Assembly: GCA_021107755.1 (NCBI GenBank) | Contig: JAIOSF010000021.1 | Location: 62,001-126,000 of the forward strand | From: Arcobacteraceae bacterium | GTDB lineage: Bacteria > Campylobacterota > Campylobacteria > Campylobacterales > Arcobacteraceae | Length of the DNA stretch: 64,000 bases | Direction of reading: 5' to 3' | Shown: positions 23,419 through 41,553 of the stretch, piece after piece | How positions within the stretch are numbered: the first letter of the stretch is position 1 | Layout of the letters: the number at the start of each line of letters is the position of its first letter | Notes under the pieces: model-generated | Seen by the model: only the letters and a program-made list of their open reading frames with translations | What the model was told of the DNA's origin: nothing | Database searches by the model: none | Position numbers and translations under genes: made by a program

Positions 23419-24376
23419 TTTTACAAAAGAGTTTCAAAAAGCTTATAAGTTAATAAATGAGAGTCATTATATTTTAATAGTTACACATATTAATCCTGAT
23501 GCAGATACTTTATCGTCAGCGTTAGCTTTGAGTAATTATATGTATAGAAATAATATCAATCATAAAGTATACAATAGTAGTAAGTATCTACCTAGAAATT
23601 TAGATTTTCTACCACGATTTGATAAAATTACCGATACAGTACCTAAAAGTTATGATCTTATTATTTATGTAGATTGTGGTGATAAAAGAAGAGTTGGTTT
23701 TGAGTTTAATTATACTTGTAAAGTTATTAATATAGATCATCACCAATCCAATGATAATTATGGAGATATAAATATTGTTGATTCCGATAAAGGAAGTACC
23801 GCTGAACTATTATTTGGTTTTTTCAAGAATAATGAGATAAAAATAACAAAAGAGATAGCCACTTGTTTATATATTGGTATTTATGATGATAGTATTGCTT
23901 TTACTACCCCTAGAACTAATAGTAAAACTTTTGAAGTGATTAATACTCTAGTTACAACTAATATAGAAATACCAAAAATATTAGAATCTTATTTAATGAG
24001 GGAGACGCTTGCAAAATATAGACTACTTCCTAAAATTTTACAAACATTAGAGTTATATTTTGAAGGTGATATCGCAATTATATATCAAAAACAAGAGTGG
24101 CTAGATATTACAGGAGCTACTTTTAATGAGTGTGATGAAGTAGTTAATGAGATATTAAAAATAGCGATAGTAAAAATAGCTATTTATTTACGCGAAGATA
24201 ACAATAATATAAGAATATCTTTACGAGGGAAAGATGATATTAAAATAGATTTATCCAAAGTTGCAAATACACTCAATGGTGGTGGTCACAAAAATGCAGC
24301 AGGAGCTACACTCTCAGGTGTGAGTATCCAACAAGCTACTACGAGATTATTAGATACTTTCAAAAATTACATTTAG
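23411..24376 (+). CDS. DHH/DHHA1-family phosphoesterase (NrnA-like)
   Basis: The 321-residue protein has the DHH metal-binding motifs: THINPDADTLSSALAL, YVDCGDKRR, IDHHQSND and DDSIAFTTPRT, plus the C-terminal DHHA1 substrate motif GGGHKNAAGA. Such proteins act as oligoribonucleases, pAp phosphatases or cyclic-dinucleotide breakdown enzymes; which one cannot be told. Soluble, no membrane segment, unlike GdpP. Convergent with the next gene, with a 17-base overlap of coding ends. Confidence 0.9.
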   Translation: MSDFTKEFQKAYKLINESHYILIVTHINPDADTLSSALALSNYMYRNNINHKVYNSSKYLPRNLDFLPRFDKITDTVPKSYDLIIYVDCGDKRRVGFEFNYTCKVINIDHHQSNDNYGDINIVDSDKGSTAELLFGFFKNNEIKITKEIATCLYIGIYDDSIAFTTPRTNSKTFEVINTLVTTNIEIPKILESYLMRETLAKYRLLPKILQTLELYFEGDIAIIYQKQEWLDITGATFNECDEVVNEILKIAIVKIAIYLREDNNNIRISLRGKDDIKIDLSKVANTLNGGGHKNAAGATLSGVSIQQATTRLLDTFKNYI

Positions 24377-25811
24377 TATTAAATTCTTCTTGAGTTATAT
24401 TTGCTATAACTGTTTCAATATTTGTATTTGATTCTCTTATAAGGGTGTTTAATTTTATTTGTAACTCTTCATTTTCAAAAGGACCTATAAAAATTTGTGT
24501 TTTTCCATTATCGTTATTACATATTGAGATTCTAGCTTGCGTAGAATTTGTTTGTAATACTAATTCTTTAAATAATTTATATTTTAAACTATTTGCTAAA
24601 ACAAATTTTAATTTACTGTTATGTTCTATCATAGGACTATTTTTAACTTCAACAGATTGTACTTTATTCTCCTCTATAAGAGTAGGGGTGCTTACCTTTT
24701 CAGCAGGAGGTGTTTGTTGTTCTATTTTTTCTTGTGGTAGATTAGTTACAGGGATAGTTTCTTTTCCTTCTATTGCTAGAGGTTCTTCTTTATTCTGTTT
24801 TGCAAACTCTATAAGTAATTGTTCTTTTTTAAGTTGTATTATTCTTTGTTTTTCCTCTTGCGCCTGTGTCTCTAGTTCCTCTTGTGTAAGAATTTGATAT
24901 TTTGTTAGTAGTTCAAGTTTATTGTTGAGTCTTTGAATGTTAATATCACTCATTCTAAAATCAACTTTTTTTACAGCTTCATATTGAACTATATCTACAT
25001 TGTTTTTTATTTCTTCTGTACTATTTGTATCTTTTGGTTTTTCTATAGGCGCTGAATCAAAAATACCTAGCATATACATAACAATAGCAACTATTATAGT
25101 AGTTGCTATAAGGGCAGAAACTGTTATAATAATCATTTTAAATTTCTTATTTTTTATATTTTCATCAGGTTCCTCTGTAGAGGTTTCTTCTATAGGAGCT
25201 TCTGTTTTTGCATCTACCGTTTCTTTCTCTTCCTCTATCTCTTCTTCGGTCTCTTCTTGAATCTCTTCTTCTGGATAAAAAGTAGGTTCAGTTTGTGTAA
25301 GTTCTGTTATGAATTCGTTAAAGTTTTCTTCAAATTTTGTAAATAGTACAGACTCTACACCATCAATATCTATTAAGAATCTATATGTATTTTCAATTGA
25401 CTCTATACTATTACCGTCTAGTATTTCTTTATGTTTAATATTAAACTTTGATTTTCCAAGATCTTCAAATTGAATAGAATTAATTTCAGTTACTAATCCT
25501 CCACAGGTATTTGATATGAATTCTGCCATAGCATCAGCTGTATCATCATCTATTTTAGTTAATACATCAGCATCAGGTGCTGCCATCATTATATTAAATA
25601 TTCTTGATGCACTTTGTGCAGGGATATAGTATGATAGAATTGAGGTTAATTTATCAAAAACAAACTCTACATCTATTCTTAATAGTTCACTATTTTCAAA
25701 GTCTCTTAGGTCTGTTTTTGTACACTCTACAAGTTTAGTATCTTTTGCTAAGAGTGCACCAAGTGTAATAGATAGATTTTCTGGTATTAGTTTTGATAAA
25801 TCTGAAGCCAT
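24360..25811 (-). CDS. CheC/FliY-like domain fused to a membrane segment and periplasmic SPOR-like end (novel architecture)
   Basis: Residues 1-165 align with the N-terminal CheC-like half of FliY encoded at 40690: both start MASD, share the IP-A-A stretch, IDD-T-DA--E-IS, G--VT--N---F-D and KF-I/L blocks. A Glu/Thr-rich linker (170-220), one strong membrane helix (226-251), a Glu/Gln-rich coiled region, and a C-terminal segment (about 395-483) with ARISICNNDNGKTQIFIGPF that looks like a SPOR repeat follow. The domain order implies the CheC-like part in the cytoplasm, near the motor, and the end in the periplasm. Third gene of the flgG minus operon; one-base overlap with the gene before it. 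Function unknown. Confidence 0.8.
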   Translation of the reverse strand: MASDLSKLIPENLSITLGALLAKDTKLVECTKTDLRDFENSELLRIDVEFVFDKLTSILSYYIPAQSASRIFNIMMAAPDADVLTKIDDDTADAMAEFISNTCGGLVTEINSIQFEDLGKSKFNIKHKEILDGNSIESIENTYRFLIDIDGVESVLFTKFEENFNEFITELTQTEPTFYPEEEIQEETEEEIEEEKETVDAKTEAPIEETSTEEPDENIKNKKFKMIIITVSALIATTIIVAIVMYMLGIFDSAPIEKPKDTNSTEEIKNNVDIVQYEAVKKVDFRMSDINIQRLNNKLELLTKYQILTQEELETQAQEEKQRIIQLKKEQLLIEFAKQNKEEPLAIEGKETIPVTNLPQEKIEQQTPPAEKVSTPTLIEENKVQSVEVKNSPMIEHNSKLKFVLANSLKYKLFKELVLQTNSTQARISICNNDNGKTQIFIGPFENEELQIKLNTLIRESNTNIETVIANITQEEFNTKCNF

Positions 25812-27197: not shown

Positions 27198-27566
27198 ATG
27201 CGTATATTAATTGTAGACGATAGTTCAACTATGAGAAGAATAATTGGAAATGTTGTTCAACAACTAGGTGTTTCAAAAGAAGATTTTGATGAAGCCGAAG
27301 ATGGTGTTGTGGCATGGAAACTTTTTCAAGAAAAAAACAATTATGATGTTGTTCTTACAGATTGGAATATGCCTAATATGAATGGACTAGATTTAGTGAA
27401 GCATATACGAACAGCTGACAAAAAAGTACCTATAGTTATGATTACAACTGAAGGTGGTAAAGGTGAGGTTATTACTGCTTTAAAAGCAGGGGTTAATAAT
27501 TATATAGTAAAGCCGTTTAGTGCAGATATATTAAAAGAAAAGCTAGACGGACTAGTTAAGGGATAA
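27198..27566 (+). CDS. cheY: CheY chemotaxis response regulator
   Basis: Single receiver domain of 122 residues with all active-site parts: acidic pair in VDDSS, phospho-acceptor Asp in LTDWNMPNMNG, Thr/Thr in MITTEGG and Lys in YIVKPF. The DWNMPNMNG stretch is typical of true CheY. Phospho-CheY binds the motor switch. The CheZ-like gene follows after three bases. Confidence 0.96.
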   Translation: MRILIVDDSSTMRRIIGNVVQQLGVSKEDFDEAEDGVVAWKLFQEKNNYDVVLTDWNMPNMNGLDLVKHIRTADKKVPIVMITTEGGKGEVITALKAGVNNYIVKPFSADILKEKLDGLVKG

Positions 27567-27569
27567 CCT

Positions 27570-28451
27570 ATGAGTATGAGTCAAGAAGAGATTGAGGCAC
27601 TAATGAGCGGTGCTGAATCTACGGAAGCAGATGAAACCGAAGAAGTATCAGTTGATGCGCAGCCAGATGAAACTACTCAAGATGTTCAAGAAGAGCAACA
27701 AGAAGATGTTCAAGGTGATGATGTAACGGCTGAGACAGAAGAAAGTACAACTAATACCTCAGAAAGTGAAGATGATATTGATAATATAGATGATATGTTA
27801 GCTGGAATAGATGGTATAGTTGATGATGGCAGTGATATAGAGGAAGGACTTGATACTAACTTAGAGCAAAAAGAGACAAAAAAAGATCAATCAATGGAAG
27901 AGTTAATTGATTCCAATCAATATCCTATGCCTGTAAAACACGAAAATAAAGTTGTAAATCAACTTAATGAAGTTGCCGATGATAGTGAAGAAAAAGCTTC
28001 TCAAATTTTTGATGTATTAAGTTTTATTCTTGATGAAAATAATGAAATTCAAAACTATAATAAAAATATGGGTGAATTTATTGATACGCAAGTATTATTA
28101 TTAGATGCTTTAGCTAAAAAATTTCCTAATATAGATGTATTTAGTCAGAATTTAGAAACAGCGAAAACTCTTGTAGAAGATTCAAAAAGTTTATCATCTA
28201 AAATTGATGGGGAAAATAATAAAGTTTTTGAAGCGATGGAATTGATGCAATACCATGATATTAATCGTCAAAAAATAGAAAGAGTTATGGCAGTAATTAG
28301 AAAGTTGAATAGTTACCTAAATGGTATTTTTGAAGATGATAATGAGAAACCAGAGGTACAAATAGCAAAACATATTTCAGGTGATTCTAATGATATAGTT
28401 GGAGCTGATGATATTGATTCATTAATAGCTGAATTTTCAGAAGAAGGATAA
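27570..28451 (+). CDS. cheZ: CheZ-like CheY-P phosphatase with FliM-like N-terminal peptide
   Basis: A long helical domain (135-250) contains LMQYHDINRQKIERVM, whose D230-x-x-x-Q234 matches the catalytic Asp and Gln of CheZ. The N-terminus, SQEEIEALMSG (4-14), resembles the CheY-P-binding peptide at the start of FliM (SQDEIDALL). Residues 15-110 are an acidic, disordered linker. The C-terminal GADDIDSLIAEF resembles the CheY-binding tail of CheZ. So the protein may grip CheY-P at both ends. It belongs to the divergent CheZ group known from Helicobacter. Directly after cheY, before flgF. Confidence 0.82.
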   Translation: MSMSQEEIEALMSGAESTEADETEEVSVDAQPDETTQDVQEEQQEDVQGDDVTAETEESTTNTSESEDDIDNIDDMLAGIDGIVDDGSDIEEGLDTNLEQKETKKDQSMEELIDSNQYPMPVKHENKVVNQLNEVADDSEEKASQIFDVLSFILDENNEIQNYNKNMGEFIDTQVLLLDALAKKFPNIDVFSQNLETAKTLVEDSKSLSSKIDGENNKVFEAMELMQYHDINRQKIERVMAVIRKLNSYLNGIFEDDNEKPEVQIAKHISGDSNDIVGADDIDSLIAEFSEEG

Positions 28452-40689: not shown

Positions 40690-41553
40690 TTGGCATCAGA
40701 TATATCAAATATAATAAAAAGTGAAATTGCAACAACTCTTGAAAGTTTACTTTCACTAACTAGTCATGTTGAAAGTGTATCACTTTTAAGTGAAGATGAA
40801 TTAAAAGGTAGCCAATGTATAAAAGTTAATACTACTTTTGAATTTGGTTCAAAAAGTTCACAATGGAATTTTTTTATACCTAGTGCTACAGCAACACAGT
40901 TTGAATACTTAATGCTAGGTGGCGTGACAGATTTAAAAGAAGCTATAGATGATGAGATTACAGATGCTGTTAAAGAGATAATATCAACAATATCAGGAAG
41001 TGTTGTAACAAGTGTGAATGCACAAGGATTTGATGATATTAGTGGTGTGAAATTTACATTAGGTGATAGTTCTGTAGTGAGTTGTGATGATATAGATAAC
41101 AGACAGCAAAGCTATAAATTTGTTTTTAAATTAAATGAAGATAGTTTTGAACTAATTATTGAATTTGATTCAAATATTATTGGTTTTTTATCTTCAATAT
41201 CTGGTAAAGAAAAAGAGGGTGATTCTCAAAATAGTAGTGGTGCTGTTACTTCTAAAGAAGTGACTGGTGCAGGTTCAATTTTAAATTCACTATTAGGTGA
41301 AGAATCAGTTGATAATTTACGATTGTTGTTTGATATCAAAATGAAACTCAGTGTTCGATTAGGAACAAAAGTATGTCTTTTAAGAGATGTAATTAGTTGG
41401 GATATTGGAGAAATAATTGAATTAAGCCAAATGACAAATGAACCTTTAGATATACTAGTAAATGGTGTTATTATAGGAAAAGGTGAAGCTGTTATTGTTG
41501 ATGGAAAATTTGGTGTAAAGATAAAATCAATAGGTGTAAAGAAGATTAATTAA
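40690..41553 (+). CDS. fliY: FliY, motor switch protein (CheC-like plus SpoA domain)
   Basis: 287 residues: N-terminal CheC/FliM-middle-like domain (1-175, with ALIDDEITDAVKEIIS-type helix) and C-terminal SpoA domain (210-280, LLFDIKMKLSVRLGTKV, GEIIELSQMTNEPLDILVNG). This is the FliY layout of Helicobacter, a C-ring part that may also act on CheY-P. The N-terminal half is paralogous to the protein at 24360. TTG start, with TTAGGG upstream. Confidence 0.9.
   Translation: MASDISNIIKSEIATTLESLLSLTSHVESVSLLSEDELKGSQCIKVNTTFEFGSKSSQWNFFIPSATATQFEYLMLGGVTDLKEAIDDEITDAVKEIISTISGSVVTSVNAQGFDDISGVKFTLGDSSVVSCDDIDNRQQSYKFVFKLNEDSFELIIEFDSNIIGFLSSISGKEKEGDSQNSSGAVTSKEVTGAGSILNSLLGEESVDNLRLLFDIKMKLSVRLGTKVCLLRDVISWDIGEIIELSQMTNEPLDILVNGVIIGKGEAVIVDGKFGVKIKSIGVKKIN

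Follow-up and report, generated by a model that had tools for sequence, protein, structure and literature searches.

Why should a protein that probably dephosphorylates CheY-P begin with a peptide like the one through which the motor switch protein FliM binds CheY-P? The question is raised by a gene in the window, the 64,000-nucleotide stretch of an Arcobacteraceae genome analysed here. An initial annotation had read its product as a CheZ-like phosphatase and had likened the two ends of the protein to CheY-binding peptides of FliM and CheZ.

A remote CheZ behind cheY in a flagellar locus

The gene has cheY directly on its 5' side and flagellar rod genes on its 3' side, and the whole set is located inside a flagellar locus, in which FliF and FliG further downstream were named by sequence and not by profile search. 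The two genes and the catalytic parts of the protein are as follows.

27198..27566, + strand: cheY (CheYz), the likely CheZ substrate, 3 nt upstream of cheZ
27570..28451, + strand: cheZ, a remote (Campylobacterota-type) CheZ; intact ORF of 293 aa with an ATG start, matched by NF041271 over residues 70-290
27939..28334, + strand: CheZ helical hairpin, residues 124-184 and 189-255 (AF2, mean pLDDT 84-98 in blocks from 131 to 250)
28257..28271, + strand: catalytic D230-xxx-Q234 (alignment counterpart in E. coli CheZ 1kmi_Z: its D/Q pair)

The NCBIfam profile NF041271 (Phos_CheZ) matched the protein with E=1.2e-33 and 116.6 bits against a curated cut-off of 350 bits, which is reached in only 20 of 200 Campylobacterota genomes. 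Pfam PF04344 gave no match to the window CheZ itself in a Pfam profile search and matched 30 of 57 aligned CheZ relatives at E<=1 (best 8.3e-7). Asp-230 and Gln-234, the DxxxQ pair seen in the core by the initial annotation, lie in MQYHDINRQKIERV (MQYHDINRQ) on the second long helix (residues 189-255), and this D[IL]xRQ pair is conserved in all 83 long Campylobacterota CheZ orthologues. A profile of eight sequences searched against PDB sequences placed E. coli CheZ (1KMI) at the top with a marginal E=0.097, and the same kind of search with the window CheZ alone returned one chance match only. Fold searches with the AF2 model (Foldseek, VIA-align) retrieved generic coiled coils, with E. coli CheZ absent among the matches listed. 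The model is all-helical and lacks the CheC-type alpha/beta fold, and no CheC profile in Pfam or NCBIfam matched the protein. The input of the first AF2 model was 57 sequences, P0001 plus 56 from the named set of 79 loci, and that of the second was 40 sequences. CheY-P phosphatase activity has been reported for the H. pylori CheZ orthologue (PMC11237671). Judged by the catalytic pair, the helical hairpin, the C-terminal motif and the position behind cheY, together with a profile match below the curated cut-off, the window protein is most likely CheZ, the phosphatase that acts on CheY-P in flagellar chemotaxis, in agreement with the first reading of the ORF. The CheZ family, its catalytic pair and its tail are already known.

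Among the named loci, cheY stands immediately upstream of cheZ in 30/30 of the Arcobacteraceae type versus 0/49 of the others. The nearest named relative is an Arcobacteraceae bacterium, with 67% identity over the aligned part of the protein. The closest solved structure to CheYz is 3gwg, which we take to be an H. pylori-type CheY entry. CheYz retains equivalents of T87, K92, Y106, V108, K109, F111 and K119, residues of the docking face that we assume, from the E. coli literature, to be those that matter for docking. A CheYz-CheZ pair within the flagellar cluster has been described in Arcobacter and is interpreted as what remains of an ancestral F3 class (PMC9321776); the window has the same cheY-cheZ locus type inside its flagellar cluster, and peptide motifs are not described in the available sections of that account. 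H. pylori differs in its published gene order, cheZ not being adjacent to cheY (PMC9321776).

The N-terminus of CheZ carries a FliM-type peptide

27579..27605, + strand: putative FliM-type docking motif SQEEIEALM, residues 4-12 (83/83 orthologues, genome-wide specificity, codon constraint, AF2 helix 5-12)

The start of the window CheZ fits [ST]Q[DE]E[IL][DE]xL[LM] at the extreme N-terminus, where AF2 predicts a helix at residues 5-12 followed by disorder at 15-69. The initial annotation had proposed a motif survey of Campylobacterota CheZ proteins and had named lack of conservation as one point on which its reading would fall. In that survey, every one of the 83 long CheZs whose start could be read began with M(SM)?[ST]Q[ED][ED][IL][EDN], and the objection falls away. 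The proteins were found by whole-protein search or with a CheZ model and not by the motif; 37 of the model matches were taken, roughly one or two for each genus, and were purposely ones whose model match stopped short of the N-terminus. The 83 are what remained of 87 proteins once two contig-end fragments (L017, L114) and two short paralogs (L049, L050) were removed. The motif was also present in 79/79 named CheZ loci, a count that is not independent because this set was partly selected by the motif and because its species probably coincide in part with those of the earlier set. That the motif might be a peculiarity of the source genome is thereby ruled out, as it is common to Campylobacterota CheZs. 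Neither this breadth nor the motif copies in Arcobacteraceae linkers described below had been noticed by the initial annotation.

Several loci fall outside this count. CheZ genes cut at contig ends (G192:C87, which is L114, and G019:C178 and C89) were not scored as lacking the motif, and in G019 another contig holds a motif-bearing CheZ start. Four genomes of the same family (G010, G022, G026 and G027) gave neither FliM nor CheZ matches, in line with flagellum loss. Short CheZ-like paralogs of about 115-175 aa (for example L049, G000:C30:113470-113703) combine a core of the DxxRQ type with a DELEALI-like tail at the C-terminus; N-terminal TQ[DE]ELDA[LM]M is present in 5/19 and absent in 14/19 of them.

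The peptide occurs in two flavours, SQEEIEALM or close variants in Arcobacteraceae CheZs and TQEELDALM in those of other Campylobacterota. FliM starts from 30 loci of the same genome group read SQDEIDALL or SQEEIDALL, and once TQEEIDALL. In the source genome itself, SQDEIDALL of FliM, the motor switch, stands beside SQEEIEALM of CheZ. The differences on the CheZ side are consistent (the last Leu replaced by Met, and Ile by Leu outside the Arcobacteraceae), so the CheZ peptide is not a recent copy of that of FliM.

The resemblance to FliM proposed by the initial annotation turned out to be highly specific. Within its own 2.62-Mb genome, the pattern Q[DE][DE][ILMF][DE][AS].. matched four times: the FliM start, the CheZ start and two sites inside folded proteins. 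In 60 whole genomes, [ST]Q[DE]E[ILMF][DE][AS].. gave 102 matches, comprising 51 FliM starts, 42 CheZ starts, 4 starts of short CheZ paralogs and 5 others, one of which, in the source genome, is internal to a thioredoxin-like protein. Thus 97/102 are starts of FliM, CheZ or a short CheZ paralog, and the reversed pattern had no match in the same 60 genomes. A chance match of the motif is ruled out by this specificity in both the own genome and the 60-genome set. At the level of sequence, the N-peptide is found almost nowhere but in FliM and CheZ.

Codon comparison indicates at what level the peptide is kept. Across cheZ codons 4-14 of Arcobacteraceae-type genes, 9% of pairwise codon comparisons show a replaced residue and 26% a synonymous change, and over the ten codons after codon 14 the residue is replaced in 70% of comparisons. 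The excess of synonymous over residue change in codons 4-14 shows that the N-peptide is under selection at the protein level. Conservation at the DNA level, as a start region or a regulatory element, is ruled out, since synonymous changes are present where the residues stay fixed.

A literature search, which included the motif strings as text, found no description of a CheZ N-terminal motif in the papers it covered; those of Lertsethtakarn (2010 and 2015) and Howitt (2011) lay outside its reach, and we do not claim that the motif is unpublished.

The C-terminal tail is a second motif of the same kind

28407..28436, + strand: predicted C-terminal CheY-docking motif DDIDSLIAEF, residues 280-289 (AF2 helix 279-291; orthologue conservation)

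The tail of the window CheZ forms a predicted helix (residues 279-291) after a disordered stretch at 260-275, and its motif is matched in 82 of the 83 long orthologues, the remaining one being truncated. A scoring matrix built from FliM N-termini alone, and hence independent of CheZ, ranked residue 4 of the window protein first (33.7) and residue 278 second (20.9). In E. coli CheZ, the best site of the same matrix is the C-terminal docking peptide SQDQVDDLLDSLGF, the counterpart of DDIDSLIAEF. These results bear out the earlier suggestion that the segment resembles the CheZ tail. The tail is likely the essential CheY docking site, a judgement that draws on H. pylori CheZ, in which C-terminal deletions are reported to abolish phosphatase function and N-terminal ones are not.

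Arcobacteraceae linkers hold apparent further copies

27612..27920, + strand: acidic disordered arm, residues 15-117 (net charge -36; pLDDT<50 at 15-69 and 84-105)
27777..27809, + strand: linker motif site, residues 70-80 (..NIDDMLAGI; loose regex, AF2 short helix 70-80)
27891..27911, + strand: possible weak further linker site SMEELID, residues 108-114 (loose regex, AF2 helix 108-114, weak PSSM score of 9.3)

Between the N-peptide and the core lies the acidic linker noted by the initial annotation, residues 15-117, with 38% Asp and Glu and 3% Lys and Arg and mostly disordered in the AF2 model. The helices at 5-12, 70-80, 108-114 and 279-291 stand in otherwise disordered arms. The two loose-regex sites in the window linker exceed expectation (p=0.002); the FliM-only matrix is not significant there (p=0.19), and for this reason we claim no strong linker copy for the window protein.

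The picture is clearer across the family. The linker has a median length of 135 residues in 30 Arcobacteraceae CheZs versus 44 in 52 other Campylobacterota. With regexes that were written after the sequences had been inspected, the strict form [DES][DE][ILM][DE]x[LIM][LIM] matched 28 times in the 30 Arcobacteraceae linkers, where 0.7 (residue shuffle) or 1.1 (dipeptide shuffle) matches were expected, and had 0 matches among the 52 other Campylobacterota CheZs. The looser form gave 57 matches in 25 of the 30 against 3.1 expected, and reversed Arcobacteraceae linkers, used as a control, gave 4 strict and 15 loose matches. In the named set, from which 4 of 79 loci were omitted because they had no anchor, 23 strict matches fell in 14/29 Arcobacteraceae and none in 46 others. 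The FliM-only matrix reached p<=0.05 in 17/30 Arcobacteraceae linkers versus 2/52 of the other Campylobacterota. The congeners L002 and L003 carry tandem DDILAGIDGI-type units. In Malaciobacter halophilus CheZ, AF2 helices at 48-65, 78-90, 99-110 and 150-155 coincide with linker motifs at 50, 79, 101 and 149; an extra helix at 187-196 lies away from any motif, and the surroundings are mostly of low confidence. What is new is thus that the acidic linkers of Arcobacteraceae CheZs often hold further sequence copies of the docking motif, predicted to form short helices in disorder.

Weak matches to the BcsR-like Pfam family PF10945 were seen in the CheZs of 17/57 relatives (best E=0.00029), and probably reflect a resemblance to the motif units.

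Comparison with Helicobacter CheZ, E. coli CheZ and FliY

Helicobacter pylori CheZ (CheZHP, HP0170), a remote CheZ orthologue, belongs to the same family and has the same layout, with an MTQEELDALM start, an acidic linker, a DxxxQ hairpin and a DDIEALIASFG tail, but its linker is short and without internal motif copies. The sequence compared was L083, whose genus was inferred and whose genome passes the NF041271 cut-off. Outside the Campylobacterota, the CheZ comparison covered E. coli only. E. coli CheZ (1KMI) shares the DxxxQ pair and the C-terminal docking helix, but at very low sequence similarity (the profile match above), and has no N-terminal FliM-like motif, its best matrix score in the first 60 residues being 7.9 versus 33.7 in the window CheZ.

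Bacillus subtilis FliY is a CheY-P phosphatase that differs in having a CheC fold and in being a C-ring member, unrelated to CheZ. It is alike in carrying an N-terminal CheY-binding motif (PMC8809382); a FliM-type peptide on a CheY-P phosphatase is therefore already known, on an unrelated fold. The FliY encoded in the window (40690-41553, + strand; PRK08432, E=5e-45) has no N-terminal CheY-binding motif, unlike that of B. subtilis (PMC8809382).

A multi-docking phosphatase as the favoured reading

We favour, with moderate confidence, a reading of the window CheZ as a multi-docking CheY-P phosphatase, for which we infer CheY-P binding by the N-terminus and linker, dimerisation, and an antenna or competition effect. 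The dimeric helical hairpin with D230/Q234 would strip the phosphoryl group from CheYz, and short amphipathic helices of one motif family would bring CheYz to the enzyme: an obligatory helix at the C-terminus, which E. coli CheZ has too, a FliM-type helix at the extreme N-terminus on a long flexible acidic arm, and, in this family, often copies along the arm. All of these would use the alpha4-beta5-alpha5 face of CheY-P, as FliM does, and whichever of them caught CheY-P would pass it on to the dimer's D/Q active site. Copies in the N-terminus and linker would enlarge the capture radius and cover the face needed by FliM. Because all helices would share one CheY-P face, a CheZ dimer could hold several CheY-P molecules, feed two active sites and compete with the motor. 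The reading of CheY-P binding and motor competition draws on the report that one face of CheY serves both CheZ and FliM (PMC3774744) and on the corresponding residues kept by CheYz.

Deletion studies in H. pylori bear on what the N-terminal helix might contribute. H. pylori CheZ has an N-terminal region that the literature calls of unknown function; the protein without residues 1-39 reportedly keeps its phosphatase and biofilm functions, both of which are reportedly lost when C-terminal regions are deleted (PMC11237671). The N-peptide is thus not needed for basic catalysis there, and the motif is expected to tune affinity, competition or placement instead. The short paralogs with a motif-like tail and no N-motif (14/19) fit such a tuning role. 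Both the deletion and these paralogs speak against a large role for the N-terminus, and the non-significant window linker and the strict matches in reversed linkers also count against the multi-docking reading.

Placement could also be achieved through a different partner. In the main rival explanation, the N-peptide docks a receiver domain other than that of CheY-P, for example that of ChePep, CheV or CheA, and positions or scaffolds CheZ with no capture of substrate; we regard this as rather unlikely. Motifs of this class bind receiver domains, and ChePep presumably has one. However, nothing else in the genome comes as close to the N-motif as the CheY-P peptide of FliM, and the polar localisation element of H. 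pylori CheZ was reportedly mapped to the central domain in a 2015 study. On the side of such docking, polar localisation of H. pylori CheZ is reported to depend on ChePep (PMC7750401, PMC5447363), C. jejuni CheZ to bind CheO (PMC9665402), and phosphatase function to survive the N-terminal deletion (PMC11237671).

The deletion of residues 1-39, with neither a phosphatase nor a biofilm defect (PMC11237671), would also be compatible with a peptide conserved for a reason other than docking, be it a part in starting translation, an effect on the stability of the protein or descent from a FliM fusion. This is improbable: the residues are fixed while their codons vary, one residue pattern runs through the whole phylum in only two flavours, SQEEIEALM and TQEELDALM, and the same motif class reappears in the linkers and at the C-terminus. 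That the peptide mimics FliM toward its motor partners and puts CheZ at the C-ring would suit the position of the cheYZ pair in a flagellar locus and the window FliY without an N-terminal CheY motif, which would leave a motor-bound phosphatase otherwise missing, but we know of no C-ring partner of the FliM N-terminal peptide and consider the idea very improbable. That peptide is instead described as the CheY docking element of FliM, tethered by a disordered linker (PMC7355467).

The multi-docking reading has a bolder form, which we offer tentatively as possible but more probably wrong than right. Arcobacteraceae CheZ would be a multivalent CheY-P antenna in which the tail, the FliM mimic at the N-terminus and as many as five copies in the linker provide up to about 14 docking sites per dimer for two active sites; it would buffer CheY-P against the motor and set the threshold for switching, and evolution could adjust it through the number of linker copies.

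The N-peptide gives a testable role to a region of Campylobacterota CheZ described in H. pylori as of "unknown function" (PMC11237671). If residues 1-20 bind CheY-P and compete with FliM, phosphatase and motor would read CheY-P through the same peptide across a whole phylum, models of adaptation gain and switching threshold would change, and the variable copy number of the linker would constitute a natural experiment in multivalency.

A FliY-like protein in the window

A further ORF in the window (24360-25811, - strand) encodes a protein of 483 aa. Over residues 1-175 it resembles the N-terminal, CheC-like domain of the window FliY, with 25% identity and E=3e-19 when the two were compared singly. 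Its only profile match was a weak one to FliL (E=0.0013). Beyond residue 175 come an acidic stretch, what looks like a single transmembrane segment and a C-terminal region, and by these sequence features the protein is an unusual, apparently membrane-anchored relative of the FliY N-domain.
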